DNA from: Brevundimonas diminuta
GTDB taxonomy: Bacteria > Pseudomonadota > Alphaproteobacteria > Caulobacterales > Caulobacteraceae
Length of the DNA: 64,000 bases
Direction: 5' to 3'
Assembly: GCF_022654015.1 (NCBI RefSeq)
Contig: NZ_CP073063.1
Coordinates: 2,997,501-3,061,500, forward strand
In this document: piece by piece, positions 25,374-56,003 of the stretch
Layout of the letters: every line of letters starts with the position of its first letter
Numbering within the stretch: position 1 is the stretch's first letter
Notes under the pieces: generated by a model
Told to the model about the DNA's origin: nothing
Database searches by the model: none
Seen by the model: the letters and a program-made list of their open reading frames with translations, nothing else
Made by a program: the position numbers and the translations under genes

Positions 25374-25561
25374 TGACGACCTGTAAGCGGTCGTTCCCGC
25401 CACGCTTGCTTTTTGCGGCGCAACATCGCATCAGGGCGCCATCACCTTGGACCCGGCCCTGTTCGCAGGCGACGGGTGGCTATCCCCGCCGCCGATCCGC
25501 TGGGAAACCGAGCCGCCGGAAACCGAAACGTCGGTCAGGCTCATCCAGATGAAATCCTGAA

Positions 25562-51631: not shown

Positions 51632-52585
51632 TCAGGCCGGCTCGGTCGCGCGCCAGTGGTCCATCCGACGCAGGAAGACCGCCGGATCCTTGGGCGTCAC
51701 CAGATTGGCGGGATCGTGGAATATCCGGTCGTGCAGCCGTGTCACAGTGAACCGCAGGGCCGCCGCTTCGCCCAGACGCGGCAAGGCTTCCCGCTCGGCG
51801 GCGTTCAGCGGCCGCACGGACTCATAGCCGCGCTGGAAGGCCGCCAGGGCGTCCGGCATGGCCCGCCCCTCGGCGTCGAAGCCCCAGGCCGACAGGGCGA
51901 TGGCGAGGTCATAGGCGAAGGCGCCGGTGCAGCCGAAATAGAAGTCGATCACCGCCGAAACGGCGCCGTCCTCGAACAGCACATTGTCGGGGAAATAGTC
52001 GGCATGGATCGCCCCGCCCGGCAGATCGGTCGTAAAGGGATCGCCCAAGCGCGCCAGCGTCGCCTGAACCTGTCTCAGCAGCGCGCGATCCGCGTCGGAC
52101 GCACGCCCTTCTCCCTCGACGCACCGATCGACCAGCCGACGCCACGTCGACGGCCCGACCGGATTGACGCGCCTCAGCTCGAAGTCCGCCGCCGTCAGGT
52201 GAAGTCGCGCCAGCACCGCCCCCGCCGCCGCCTGATCGGCCGATGACGGCGTGCGCAGCCAGGCGCCGGTCTTCCATTCGATCACCGCCGCCGCCCGGCC
52301 GTTCAGTCGTCCAAGCCAGTCACCGGTCCGGTTCTCGATGGGCGTGGGACACGCAAAGCCGCGCGCCGCCAGATGCGCCGTCAGCCCCAGGCAGAAGGGC
52401 AGCGACGCCTCGTCCGTCCGCCCCTCGAACAGGGTCAGCACGAACCGCCCGCGCGTCGTGTCCAGCCGATAGTTGGTGTTCTCCACCCCCTCGGCGATGG
52501 CCGTCAGTTCGACCAGCTCCCCGATGTCGTAGCCGGCCAGGAACGCGTCAGCGTCGGCGATAGAGACAGGGGTGAAGACGGCCAT
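51632..52585 (-). CDS. thrB: Homoserine kinase (ThrB, aminoglycoside-kinase-like type)
   Basis: 317 aa of the APH-fold homoserine kinase: IAEGVENTNYRLDTTRGRFV (ATP site), AIHADYFPDNVLFEDG with the HxDxxxxN catalytic loop, and VIDFYFGCTGAFAYDLA as the metal site. It phosphorylates homoserine on the way to threonine. Its ATG is 4 bases after the stop of the kinase-dehydrogenase gene, so both follow the attenuator leader in one operon. Confidence 0.94.
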   Translation of the reverse strand: MAVFTPVSIADADAFLAGYDIGELVELTAIAEGVENTNYRLDTTRGRFVLTLFEGRTDEASLPFCLGLTAHLAARGFACPTPIENRTGDWLGRLNGRAAAVIEWKTGAWLRTPSSADQAAAGAVLARLHLTAADFELRRVNPVGPSTWRRLVDRCVEGEGRASDADRALLRQVQATLARLGDPFTTDLPGGAIHADYFPDNVLFEDGAVSAVIDFYFGCTGAFAYDLAIALSAWGFDAEGRAMPDALAAFQRGYESVRPLNAAEREALPRLGEAAALRFTVTRLHDRIFHDPANLVTPKDPAVFLRRMDHWRATEPA

Positions 52586-52589
52586 GGCC

Positions 52590-54326
52590 TTAGTTTAGGC
52601 CCGCATCGGCGCGCCGTGCACGCACGATCTCGGCCAGGTCCGCCAAGATGCTCTCGGTCGTGGCCCAACGCCCGGCGCCCCGGCCCCGGCAGCGCCACAC
52701 GCGGCCGTCGGCGCCGTAGACCTTCAGCGCATTGCCCTCGCCGCGCAGGGTGGAGAACAGCGGATCGCCATGGTCGGCGCTCAGCGACACCGACGGGCGG
52801 ATCACCCCGTCCTTCAGATGGGCGGAGCCGATCTGACGCACCCCGCCGGCGGCTGAGGTCGCCTCAGTCAGGTGGTCGCGCGGCACGTCGCCATCGGGCG
52901 AGCGACCGAACGCTTCGTGGCACAGCAGCCGCACCTTGGCCGCCGCATCCAGGCCTTCCAGATCCGAGGACGGATCCTCCTCGGCAAAGCCAGCCGCGCG
53001 GGCGTCCGCCAGGGCTTCGTTGAAGGCCGCCCCGTCGCCCAGCCGCTCCAGCATGAAGTTGACCGTGCCGTTCAGCACCGCCTCGAAGCCGACCACCTCT
53101 CCGGCCGCACGGGCCGCGCGGACCGTCTCGATCATCGGCGATCCGCCCCCGACCGAGGCCGACCAGAAGATGCGCCGTCCATTGGCCTCCGCCAGGGCCT
53201 GAAGGCCGCCCGGATCGCGGCTGACCGCCTGCTTGTTGGCGCTGGCTACGTCACAGCCGGCCTCGAGCGCAGCGCGGATCACGGCGTGGCCTGCCTCGCC
53301 TTCCGACAGGGCCTCCAGCACGATGTCGGGCTTCCTGGCCCAAAGGTCCGCCGGGTTGGCGGTGAACAACGAGGCCGGACAGTCCACGTCGCGGGCCTTC
53401 TTCGGATTGCGCACCAGCACGCCCACTACCTCGTAGCGAGGATCGTCTAGCAGCTTGGCCAGCACGCCGCCGCCGACCACGCCGCATCCGGCGACCGCGA
53501 CCTTCAGCGGCGGCAGGGCGGGCGCGGGACCGGGCGGCGCCGACTTATCGCCGATGACCGTGCCGTCGGCGCGATCCAGCGCCGCCACCTCGATCTCGAC
53601 CCCGCGGCTTTCGCCCAGGTCGATGGCGTCGTGCTGGACCAGAGCGCCGCCCAGCTTGCGCGCCACGTCCCAAGAGGCGCGGCGATAGCGCAGGGCCGGG
53701 GCCGTCTTGTCGTTGGGGTCGTGGTCGTAAAGGCCGTCCACGTCCTTGACCAATCGCACCTTCTTCAGCCCCAACTCGGCTGCGAGGAACACCGCCGTCA
53801 GGTCCGATCCGCCGCGTCCCAGCAGGGCCACCTTGCCGTCCGGCCGCACCGCGCCGAACCCGGGCACCACCACCACCTCGTGCCGATCCAGCGCCTGTTT
53901 CAGATGGTCGGGGCGCAGGCCGCAAGGGCGTGAATGCTCCGGCTCGCCCTCCGCCACGATGCCCAGTTCGCGCACCGACAGGGCGCAGGCGTCCAGACCG
54001 ATCCGGTCGCAAGCGATGGCCACGAGCGCCGCCGACTTCTCCTCGCCCAGGGCGACGTAGCCGGGCAGCAGGTCGTTGGAATGGGCCAGGCCCAGCGCCC
54101 GCGCCTCGCCCAGCAACCGGTCCGTCGCCCCGCCGAAGGCCGAGACCACCGCCACCACCTTTCGGCCCGCCCGCACATGGCCATAGACGGCCGAGGCGAC
54201 CAGCGGCGCCTCCGCCGGGCTGCGCAGGATGGACGAGCCGAACTTCAGCACCACCACCTCTGGCGCAGCCTGACTGCTGGGATCGAGGCTTTCGGATTTT
54301 TCTACGACGGCGAGTTGGGCGGACAT
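52590..54326 (-). CDS. Fused aspartate kinase-homoserine dehydrogenase without ACT domain
   Basis: 578 aa. Residues ~22-262 are an amino-acid kinase domain: VVLKFGSSILR, ALGEEKSA, LGRGGSDLTAVFLAAELG (170-187), VKDVDGLYDHDPNDKTAP. Residues ~275-578 are homoserine dehydrogenase: VAVAGCGVVGGGV (NAD(P) loop), SANKQAV, SASVGGGSPMIETV, EDPSSDLEGLDAAAKV (catalytic Asp/Lys region). The ~15-residue Pro/Ala linker replaces the paired ACT domains present in ThrA-type enzymes, which are ~820 aa. It would make aspartyl phosphate and reduce the semialdehyde to homoserine. No allosteric domain is seen, so control likely rests with the upstream attenuator. Confidence 0.9.
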   Translation of the reverse strand: MSAQLAVVEKSESLDPSSQAAPEVVVLKFGSSILRSPAEAPLVASAVYGHVRAGRKVVAVVSAFGGATDRLLGEARALGLAHSNDLLPGYVALGEEKSAALVAIACDRIGLDACALSVRELGIVAEGEPEHSRPCGLRPDHLKQALDRHEVVVVPGFGAVRPDGKVALLGRGGSDLTAVFLAAELGLKKVRLVKDVDGLYDHDPNDKTAPALRYRRASWDVARKLGGALVQHDAIDLGESRGVEIEVAALDRADGTVIGDKSAPPGPAPALPPLKVAVAGCGVVGGGVLAKLLDDPRYEVVGVLVRNPKKARDVDCPASLFTANPADLWARKPDIVLEALSEGEAGHAVIRAALEAGCDVASANKQAVSRDPGGLQALAEANGRRIFWSASVGGGSPMIETVRAARAAGEVVGFEAVLNGTVNFMLERLGDGAAFNEALADARAAGFAEEDPSSDLEGLDAAAKVRLLCHEAFGRSPDGDVPRDHLTEATSAAGGVRQIGSAHLKDGVIRPSVSLSADHGDPLFSTLRGEGNALKVYGADGRVWRCRGRGAGRWATTESILADLAEIVRARRADAGLN

Positions 54327-54362
54327 CGGGCTTCTCGGGAAAGATCGGGATGGGGTGGGTTG

Positions 54363-54399
54363 AAAAGAAAAAACCCCGCCTGGCGGACCGGGCGGGGTT
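54363..54399 (-). terminator. Attenuator terminator before the kinase-dehydrogenase gene
   Basis: On the minus strand AACCCCGCC...GGCGGGGTT form a stem of up to 12 pairs with a CGGA loop, followed by a run of six T, C, then four T. It lies between the leader peptide and the structural gene, 37 bases before the ATG, so it must be bypassed for expression. The 5' arm includes CCCGCCCG (54389-54396), the exact complement of CGGGCGGG (54440-54447) in the leader. Confidence 0.88.
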
Positions 54400-54429
54400 C
54401 GGGTTCTGCGGTTGCCGGGGTTCGGCGCG

Positions 54430-54570
54430 CTAAACTCGTCCCGCCCGTTCGGGCATGGTGGTGGTGCCGGTGGTACCGCCGATAATCGCGCCGCCGAGGA
54501 TCATGCCGAAACGCGTCGCGGCGAGGCCGGCGACGGTCGAAACTTCGGCGATGAGCGAGCGCTGTTGCAC
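54430..54570 (-). CDS. Ile/Thr-rich leader peptide (thrL-like)
   Basis: A 46-codon frame from a GTG at 54570 to a TAG at 54430 ends with FGMILGGAIIGGTTGTTTMP-ERAGRV. Ile-Ile is encoded ATT ATC and the Thr run is ACC ACC GGC ACC ACC ACC. Five Thr and paired Ile just before a terminator is the design of E. coli thrL. The antiterminator half CGGGCGGG lies within codons for Arg-Ala-Gly right after the Thr run, where a stalled ribosome would leave it free and a ribosome at the stop would cover it. The start is uncertain: no good ribosome site is seen before the GTG; an ATG at codon 23 would give a shorter version. Confidence 0.7.
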   Translation of the reverse strand: MQQRSLIAEVSTVAGLAATRFGMILGGAIIGGTTGTTTMPERAGRV

Positions 54571-54600
54571 AGGGCAAGGTCCGGTTGAAATCTGAGCCTA

Positions 54601-54629
54601 GGGTGATCGGACGCCCCCCGCCCTGTCAA
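54601..54629 (-). promoter_or_regulatory. Possible promoter of the leader-thr operon
   Basis: On the minus strand TTGACA (54624-54629) is a perfect -35 box. The -10 is weak (around CACCCTAGG at 54599-54607). A start about 54595 would place the leader GTG some 25 bases in. Confidence 0.4.
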
Positions 54630-54724
54630 GTCAGGTTGGACGATTTTTTCACGACAAGGCGTTTATGTTGCGTTTTCACCCCTTAGAAATCGCACCAGGT
54701 CATCAATGAGGTTGAATTTTTCGC

Positions 54725-54755
54725 TTGACCGGCGCCGCCTCGATCATCAACGTAA
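54725..54755 (+). promoter_or_regulatory. Possible promoter for the metX riboswitch transcript
   Basis: TTGACC at 54725-54730 with a 17-18-base spacer leads to an AACGTA-like -10 near 54749. Transcription would begin just before the riboswitch P1 stem at 54759, the usual distance. Confidence 0.45.
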
Positions 54756-54758
54756 AGT

Positions 54759-54875
54759 CACTCATCAAGACCAGCCGAGGGATTAGGCCCTTTGACGCTG
54801 GGGCAACCATCGGGTCTCACAGCTCGAAACGGTGCCAACTCCTGCGGGGTCCTTCGGGGTCGCGAGAGATGAGTG
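54759..54875 (+). promoter_or_regulatory. S-box (SAM-I-type) riboswitch upstream of metX
   Basis: The conserved S-box core can be followed across the element. P1 is CACTCATC with GATGAGTG (54759-54766 / 54868-54875). Then come CATCAAGA, a P2 with CCAGC/GCTGG, GAGGGATTAGGCCC, TTTGA, GGCAACC, a P3 whose ACC/GGT pairs close, GGTGCCAACTCCTGC, a P4 with a TTCG loop, and AGAGATGAGT. These are the S-box signature pieces in order. SAM binding should stabilise P1 and switch off metX-metB. It is not the SAM-II class usually found ahead of these genes in alphaproteobacteria. Confidence 0.87.
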
Positions 54876-54942
54876 GAGCATCGACGAGACGACGCTCCAC
54901 GCTCTGTCACCGCATCGAGACTTGCTGAGCGAGAACGATGCG
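54873..54942 (+). promoter_or_regulatory. Putative expression platform of the SAM riboswitch
   Basis: GTGGAGC (54873-54879) pairs with GCTCCAC (54894-54900), and its first bases overlap the 3' strand of P1, so the two stems compete. A second stem, CGCATCG (54911-54917) with CGATGCG (54936-54942), ends 8 bases before the metX ATG where the ribosome site should be. There is no T-run, so translational control is more likely than termination. Confidence 0.5.
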
Positions 54943-54950
54943 GAACGACG

Positions 54951-56003
54951 ATGACTCTGGCCGAAACCACCCTGCTCGAAGACCCTGACTGTCGCCGCGC
55001 GACAGCCCTTACCCCTGCCCGCGAACCGACGCGTGAGCGCGGCGGCGCCCGCGACGTCATCGTTCCCATTCCCGCCGACTTCCGCCTCGCCTCGGGCGAA
55101 AAGCTGAACCAGCCCAATATCGTCGGCCGCCTGCATGGCCGGATCGGCGCCCCCGTCGTCGTGGTCGCCGGCGGCATCTCGGCCGGCCGCTTCGTCCACC
55201 GGACGGAGACCAACGGCCTGGGCTGGTGGTCGGGCGCCGTTTCGGTGCGCGGGCCCATCGATCTGAGCCGCCTGCAAGTTCTGGCCGTCGATTTCGCCCC
55301 CGGCGCCGAGTTCCTGGACAAGGCCGTCACCATCACCACCCAGGATCAGGCCCGCCTGCTGGCCCTGGTGCTGAACCATCTGAAGATCGAGCGCGTCGCC
55401 GCCTTCGTCGGCTGCTCGTACGGCGGCATGGTCGGCCTGGCCTTCGCCGAACTGTTCCCCGACTGGGCCGAGCAGCTGATCATCGTGTCGGCCGCCCATC
55501 GCGCCCATCCCCAGGCCACCGCCTGGCGCGGCATTCAGCGCCGCATCCTGCAGTTCGCCGTCGCCGCCGGCCGTCCCGAGGAGGGCGTCGCCCTGGCCCG
55601 CGAACTGGCCATGACCACCTATCGCACGGCCGAGGAGTTCGACGATCGCTTCGACACCACCGCGCCCGCGGCGGTCGGCGGCGCCTATCCCGTCTGCGAC
55701 TATCTGACGGCGCGGGGCCAGGCCTACCGGACCCACACCACCCCGGCCCGCTGGCTGTCGATGTCCGATTCCCTGGACCGCCACAGCGTAACGCCCGAGG
55801 CCATCACAACCCCCGTCACCCTGATTGGCTTCACCTCCGACCGGCTGGTGCCGATCGACGACATCCGCGAACTGGCCGCGCGGTTGCCGACTCTGTGGCG
55901 CTTCGTCGAGGCGCCCTCGCTCTATGGCCACGACGCCTTTCTGAAGGAGGACGCCTTCGTCGGCGATATCCTCCGCGCCGCCTTGAAGGATATCAAAGCA
56001 TGA
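54951..56003 (+). CDS. metX: Homoserine O-acyltransferase, MetX type
   Basis: 350 aa alpha/beta-hydrolase-fold acyltransferase. The nucleophile elbow is VGCSYGGMVGLAFAEL, and the Asp and His are in FTSDRLVPIDDI and LYGHDAFLKE. The GxSYGGM form rather than GGSMGGM resembles the MetX subset that uses succinyl-CoA, so the acyl donor (acetyl or succinyl) is uncertain. It commits homoserine to methionine. The ATG at 54951 follows the SAM riboswitch; metB begins inside its stop codon. Confidence 0.9.
   Translation: MTLAETTLLEDPDCRRATALTPAREPTRERGGARDVIVPIPADFRLASGEKLNQPNIVGRLHGRIGAPVVVVAGGISAGRFVHRTETNGLGWWSGAVSVRGPIDLSRLQVLAVDFAPGAEFLDKAVTITTQDQARLLALVLNHLKIERVAAFVGCSYGGMVGLAFAELFPDWAEQLIIVSAAHRAHPQATAWRGIQRRILQFAVAAGRPEEGVALARELAMTTYRTAEEFDDRFDTTAPAAVGGAYPVCDYLTARGQAYRTHTTPARWLSMSDSLDRHSVTPEAITTPVTLIGFTSDRLVPIDDIRELAARLPTLWRFVEAPSLYGHDAFLKEDAFVGDILRAALKDIKA

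Follow-up and report, generated by a model that had tools for sequence, protein, structure and literature searches.

The fused aspartokinase-homoserine dehydrogenase (AK-HDH) gene of Brevundimonas diminuta is preceded by a short reading frame with clustered threonine codons and by a GC stem with a run of T, which raises the question of whether the operon is controlled through translation of its own leader. In E. coli, thrL uses Ile/Thr codons for ribosome-mediated attenuation, and a first-pass annotation of the 64,000-nucleotide stretch of DNA analysed here (the window) read this locus in the same way. Comparative sequence supports that reading: the Thr/Ile codons, the complementary segment and the T-run are conserved in relatives. 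Leader frame, complementary segment and hairpin very probably constitute a ribosome-mediated transcription attenuator, through which a shortage of charged threonyl-tRNA (and isoleucyl-tRNA) would turn on the AK-HDH operon.

Organization of the Leader and Operon

The leader frame occupies 54430..54570 of the minus strand, the strand of every attenuator feature given below; it begins with GTG and runs for 46 codons (MQQRSLIAEVSTVAGLAATRFGMILGGAIIGGTTGTTTMPERAGRV) to a TAG stop. The annotation's description of this frame, its TAG and the GC stem with T-run was confirmed at its positions on the minus strand. Two isoleucine codons, ATT ATC (54481..54486), with a further one at 54501-54499, precede five clustered threonine codons (54457..54474), arranged as ACC ACC (54474-54469) and ACC ACC ACC (54465-54457). 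Segment 1, GCCC (54451..54454), may pair across a 4-nt loop with the GGGC of segment 2. Segment 2, CGGGCGGG (54440..54447), lies in the final leader codons, which read CGG GCG GGA CGA GTT TAG, and would provide the 5' strand of an antiterminator. Segment 3, CCCGCCCG (54389..54396), is common to antiterminator and terminator in the sequence and in the predicted folds. Segments 2 (54447-54440) and 3 (54396-54389) are exact complements, as had been claimed. Folding predicts an upper part of the antiterminator (54400..54438) that consists of CG/CG, a GUUU/GAAC pairing spanning the stop codon, and an inner hairpin. The predicted intrinsic terminator, GAACCCCGCC-CGGTCCGCCA-GGCGGGG followed by six T (54368..54400), has its arms at 54400-54391 and 54380-54371 and its six T at 54373-54368; 29 nt separate the leader stop from the hairpin, and 41 nt separate the T-run from the ATG of AK-HDH.

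AK-HDH (52590..54326, minus strand) is a protein of 578 aa with the Pfam domains AA_kinase, NAD_binding_3, and Homoserine_dh; the nearest named loci are Brevundimonas, with 98% identity in this protein. A homoserine-kinase-like gene of the APH family (51632..52585, minus strand) starts 4 nt downstream and likely shares an operon with AK-HDH; we take it to fill the ThrB role on the basis of its family. A short frame with codons for the end products is thus placed 5' of its cognate operon, the arrangement seen in ribosome-mediated attenuators. Divergent from the attenuator, on the plus strand, Rfam matches a SAM riboswitch (RF00162, 54759-54875), and an alpha/beta-hydrolase gene, presumably metX, lies downstream of it on the same strand. 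One intergenic region therefore holds two RNA elements back to back, a putative attenuator on the minus strand and a SAM riboswitch on the plus strand.

Conservation of the Leader in Relatives

Ninety-six loci (L001-L096) were fetched, and a leader was found in 83, 82 of them by script and one by eye (L088, where a run of N breaks the gene); the 82 script-found leaders reduce to 64 distinct stretches, which were aligned. The 13 leaderless loci comprise a separate aspartokinase (L002), fused genes directly behind a metY-like gene outside Brevundimonas (L027, L085), fused genes from other genera (L028-L031), a met-operon HDH (L094), a Niastella locus (L096), and loci at contig ends, without upstream sequence (L019, L049, L060, L092). 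The upstream regions of L027-L031, L085, and L094, seven in all and with no leader match, were inspected by eye.

A promoter is predicted from a -35 element TTGACA (54624..54629) and a -10 element CACCCT (54600..54605) at a spacing of 18, with transcription predicted to start near 54593. A strict sigma-70 scan of 52000-55000 found no promoter, and the pair is proposed because it is conserved: TTGAC[A/G/C] stands at the same place in all 64 distinct relatives, as does CANNNT at a spacing of 17 or 18. The first in-frame start codon falls 57-64 nt past the start of the -35 element in 56 of the 64 sequences. Start codons are GTG in 51, TTG in nine, and ATG in four, counted with a rule that took an upstream TTG in L008 and L038 despite a homologous GTG there; L068 has no start codon at the usual place.

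The codon content of the leader is also conserved. Every one of the 64 has five to eight threonine codons per 16 counted (mean 5.9), and 61 have at least one isoleucine codon within the same 16; AK-HDH itself contains 2.1% Thr and 2.3% Ile. Upstream of the threonine run the peptide varies among species groups. The motif GG[C/T]GG is present in the final leader codons of all 64, and where these codons overlap the antiterminator the alanine codon is GCG (62/62) and the glycine codon GGA or GGG (62/62), counts that come from related sequences and do not stand for 62 independent events; the downstream genes encode alanine as GCG in 29% and as GCC in 64% of cases and favor GGC (65%) for glycine. 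By this comparison of sequences, codon choice in the overlap follows the RNA helix and not the preference of the genes.

Between the terminator arm and the six codons that close the leader, the longest stretch of Watson-Crick complementarity has a length of at least 7 in 59 of the 64 distinct relatives. Control windows drawn from these leaders give a mean match of 3.7, and in four of 64 rows one of them reaches the observed value. Letter shuffles equal the observed match in 508 of 6400 trials, a frequency explained by the GC-rich sequence; in these alignments it is the genus-wide conservation, rather than the lone 8-mer, that carries conviction.

Predicted Alternative RNA Structures and the Proposed Mechanism

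In folds of the transcript cut before the 3' arm of the terminator, segments 2 and 3 pair in 64/64, giving an antiterminator that overlaps the leader frame and excludes the terminator, as expected of an attenuator. The stop-codon segment is paired in all 64 truncated folds as well, compared with a mean of 47.9/64 after shuffling of the loop. Two variants of the upper helix, GUUU/GAAC and GGUU/AACC, were each read from single folds. RNAalifold returns a covariation term of -0.01, i.e., almost none, because the lower helix hardly varies. When the leader is masked to 10 nt past its stop codon, the terminator folds in 64/64 (62/64 under a stricter position rule), and all 64 have a hairpin followed by four or more T within eight letters; a stricter terminator scan missed only L070 among the leader loci examined. 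Folded at full length from segment 2 onward, without a ribosome, the antiterminator prevails in 48 of the 64, including the window's own sequence; in the remaining 16 it could prevail only if it formed before the terminator did. Treated likewise, at full length and without a ribosome, the E. coli leader also gives the terminator.

A stem of at least 3 bp just after the threonine codons, overlapping segment 2, occurs in 60/64, compared with 42% after shuffling; the register of this small hairpin appears to shift between subgroups. The two-state layout proposed in the annotation is supported for the pairing of the 8-mers and is amended in two respects: the predicted antiterminator is longer and takes in the stop codon, and there are perhaps three alternative helices, not two.

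The following sequence of events is proposed. With charged threonyl-tRNA scarce, a ribosome waiting at the last threonine codon, which in the window starts 12 nt before segment 2, would, given the size of a ribosome footprint, end approximately where segment 2 begins and leave it free. Free segment 2 would pair with segment 3 in a helix predicted to continue through the stop codon and to exclude the terminator, allowing RNA polymerase to read on. A ribosome that reaches the stop codon would cover segment 2 instead; segment 3 would then pair with the 3' arm of the terminator, and transcription would end. Without a ribosome, the 4-bp hairpin between segments 1 and 2 may hold segment 2 closed. 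Among the relatives, the last Thr/Ile codon starts 14 nt before GG[C/T]GG in 46/64 and 2-11 nt before it in 18/64; in the latter a stalled ribosome would overlap segment 2, so earlier threonine codons would have to act.

Distribution among Brevundimonas and Other Genera

A covariance model, R1, was built from the same 64 leader sequences. It matches at E <1e-15 in 25/25 Brevundimonas members with a full fused gene and in 0/15 members without one, which is a tally and not an independent test, since the 25 genomes are largely the training set of R1. One of the 15 (G183) has a weak match (E 0.0097); G066, in which the match to the gene begins at residue 160, was counted as without a full fused gene, and in G102 the leader is at the end of one contig and the gene at the end of another. 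Over 299 genomes of the family, 87 match R1 at E 0.01, with strong matches only in Brevundimonas; over 385 genomes of the class, six match at E 1e-3, of which the window's own genome alone does so strongly. Two candidates from these searches were rejected: the best match outside the genus (E 1.6e-6) is a leader at most two ORFs before ilvC, and the next match in the class (E 3.0e-7) belongs to a distinct leader, upstream of asd. A Thr-rich leader with a terminator was looked for and not found upstream of 20 additional genes for HDH or AK-HDH (11 HDH-only ones of Brevundimonas and nine from other genera); by eye, none was seen before thrC, lysC, and the first asd of the window's own genome. The annotation had suggested that relatives across Caulobacterales be compared for these features; Thr/Ile codons, complement and T-run are kept in Brevundimonas, and in the genomes sampled they do not extend to the order at large.

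The only Rfam family that reaches its gathering score in 54200-55000 is SAM (RF00162), on the opposite strand; matches on the minus strand of this interval are at chance level only (rnk_pseudo, E 3.3; SAH, E 2.8). Elsewhere in the window a sul1 RNA (RF03058) is present at 25446-25509 on the plus strand (59.1 bits).

Alternative Explanations

The same features might be accounted for by a small-protein gene that ends in its ordinary terminator, with AK-HDH transcribed from a promoter of its own. The frame does have its own promoter-like pair, and its T-run is 41 nt away from the ATG of AK-HDH; however, the choice of its final codons tracks an RNA helix, it has many codons for amino acids that this pathway makes, and it accompanies the fused gene and was absent upstream of those met-operon HDH genes that were inspected, and we consider this explanation very unlikely. 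Alphaproteobacterial attenuator RNA and peptide with roles in trans are on record in the consulted excerpts of two papers (PMC10117765, PMC7298713), and the terminated leader RNA or peptide might likewise act mainly in trans, in the manner of Sinorhizobium rnTrpL/peTrpL, with attenuation in cis secondary. That the leader peptide changes freely between species outside the threonine run and the last codons fits action in cis better, and a chiefly trans role seems improbable here.

Direct binding of threonine by the leader RNA, as in a riboswitch, would suit a threonine gene with structure in its 5' region (z-score -1.72), but the minus strand here has no Rfam match at gathering score, and conservation sits in codons and in two overlapping helices while the loop is variable; we give this possibility almost no weight. 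It is similarly hard to credit that leader translation affects AK-HDH translation or Rho access rather than an intrinsic terminator: the distance from leader to gene is short, as such coupling would favor, but the hairpin with at least four T in eight is retained in 64/64, with L070 the sole locus missed by the stricter scan among those examined. Ribosome-mediated attenuation in cis is the reading retained below.

Relation to Known Attenuators

The locus resembles thrL of E. coli K-12 in its Thr/Ile codons, in glycine and alanine codons complementary to the 5' arm of the terminator (in E. coli, GGTGCGGGC with GCCCGCACC), in the stop codon and terminator that follow, and in the fused AK-HDH and homoserine kinase genes downstream. 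It differs in bacterial class, in the length and start of the leader (46 codons with GTG, compared with 21 codons with ATG in E. coli), and in the enzyme, in that ACT domains are present in E. coli ThrA and none was found in the AK-HDH of the window. Unlike thrL (RF00506), it has no Rfam Thr_leader match, either at gathering score in the 64-kb window or at E <=10 in 54200-55000. A putative thrL-like attenuator is hereby placed in an alphaproteobacterial genus; a thrL layout without a match to the Rfam model would fit a separate origin but does not show one. A survey of Rfam motifs suggests, in the excerpt consulted, that amino-acid attenuators may originate in gammaproteobacteria, with very few transfers (PMC3766115).

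Ribosome-mediated attenuation has been described in the same bacterial family for ilvBN of Caulobacter crescentus, according to the consulted part of PMC4117421; that attenuator differs in having Ile/Val codons and in controlling an ilv operon. In Sinorhizobium meliloti, the SEP5 sORF is translated, contains six Thr and three Lys codons, and is suggested to be a leader peptide; it lies in the 5' UTR of a gene termed aspartate dehydrogenase (PMC10117765). SEP5 differs from the Brevundimonas leader in its downstream gene and its lysine codons, and the consulted excerpt of that paper does not mention a terminator or antiterminator. No threonine attenuator of Brevundimonas or Caulobacter appeared among the literature matches listed, nor is one named in the consulted excerpts of PMC2965389, PMC4833913, and PMC1273637; an earlier description is possible.

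Homoserine Dehydrogenase Paralogs and ACT Domains

In a midpoint-rooted tree of 39 HDH domains, for which 20 leader-bearing rows were chosen from the 83 and in which L085 has a long branch, the leader-bearing genes form one clade (100/98). The HDH-only genes of Brevundimonas (11 rows) form a neighboring clade (98/93), and the two clades are joined at 98/95. In all three HDH-only surroundings that were read (G058, G117, and G186), the order is SAM riboswitch, metX-like gene, metY-like gene, HDH, with gene names assigned by eye; the other eight HDH-only loci are known from partial upstream sequence or from the tree. Two fused genes (L085 and that of G009, L119) also lie behind a SAM riboswitch and a metY-like gene. 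Of three HDH-only proteins whose N-terminal stretch was compared pairwise with aspartokinase, two retain a piece of it (E 5.7e-9 and 5.9e-7), and the third gives E 0.02. Both kinds of gene are present in G117 and G186, and six Brevundimonas genomes that are 99-100% complete (G024, G037, G073, G092, G143, and G147) have no Homoserine_dh match at E 1e-3, a search that found the domain in 14/14 control genomes.

No ACT domain was found in the AK-HDH of the window, in two further fused proteins, or in three HDH-only proteins, nor among the domains listed for 120 homologues, the best of 2578; ACT domains are present in the separate aspartokinase of the same genome, in two HDH proteins of another genus, and in E. 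coli ThrA. Where an enzyme lacks recognizable ACT domains, as here, its restraint may come from the leader RNA. A tentative extension, which we hold possible without favoring it, is that RNA replaced allostery at the Thr/Met branch of Brevundimonas: an ancient duplication would have given two ACT-less HDH copies, one with an intact aspartokinase under the Thr/Ile attenuator; in the other, which a SAM riboswitch controls within a met operon, the aspartokinase would have decayed. Species would retain either copy or both, and the pair would be an RNA-only analogue of E. coli ThrA/MetL.

Other Leader-Like Frames

In the window's own genome, the frame before the second asd is short and has many Thr, Lys, Ile, and Met codons (L167, approximately 1000-1090; ...VIKRPIKAMTSKTTGFGGAVSGARAI), as if it sensed every product of the aspartate family. 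Similar frames stand before the second asd in several genera (L132, which is the same place as L165, and L134, L147, L153, L155, L158, L161, L129, and L164), with hairpins and clear T-runs only in L129, L132/L165, and L164. Two loci from other families combine a short frame with a T-run hairpin: MTQATKRATTTKTKPSGAGIARA before an asd-like gene (L162, in G437) and MTYPTTATMTTTATRCGGP before a threonyl-tRNA synthetase-like gene (L163, in G575), both genes being named by eye. Short frames ending GGPGRVVAR or GGPGKVVVR, each with a terminator-like hairpin, occur upstream of an ilvC-like gene in L123 and L127; in L127 an acetyltransferase-like frame lies between leader and gene. In L124 and L125, an Ile-rich frame (AFIVAAAIIIITEPVVG) and a terminator-like hairpin directly precede a small kinase-like gene, an unexpected target.
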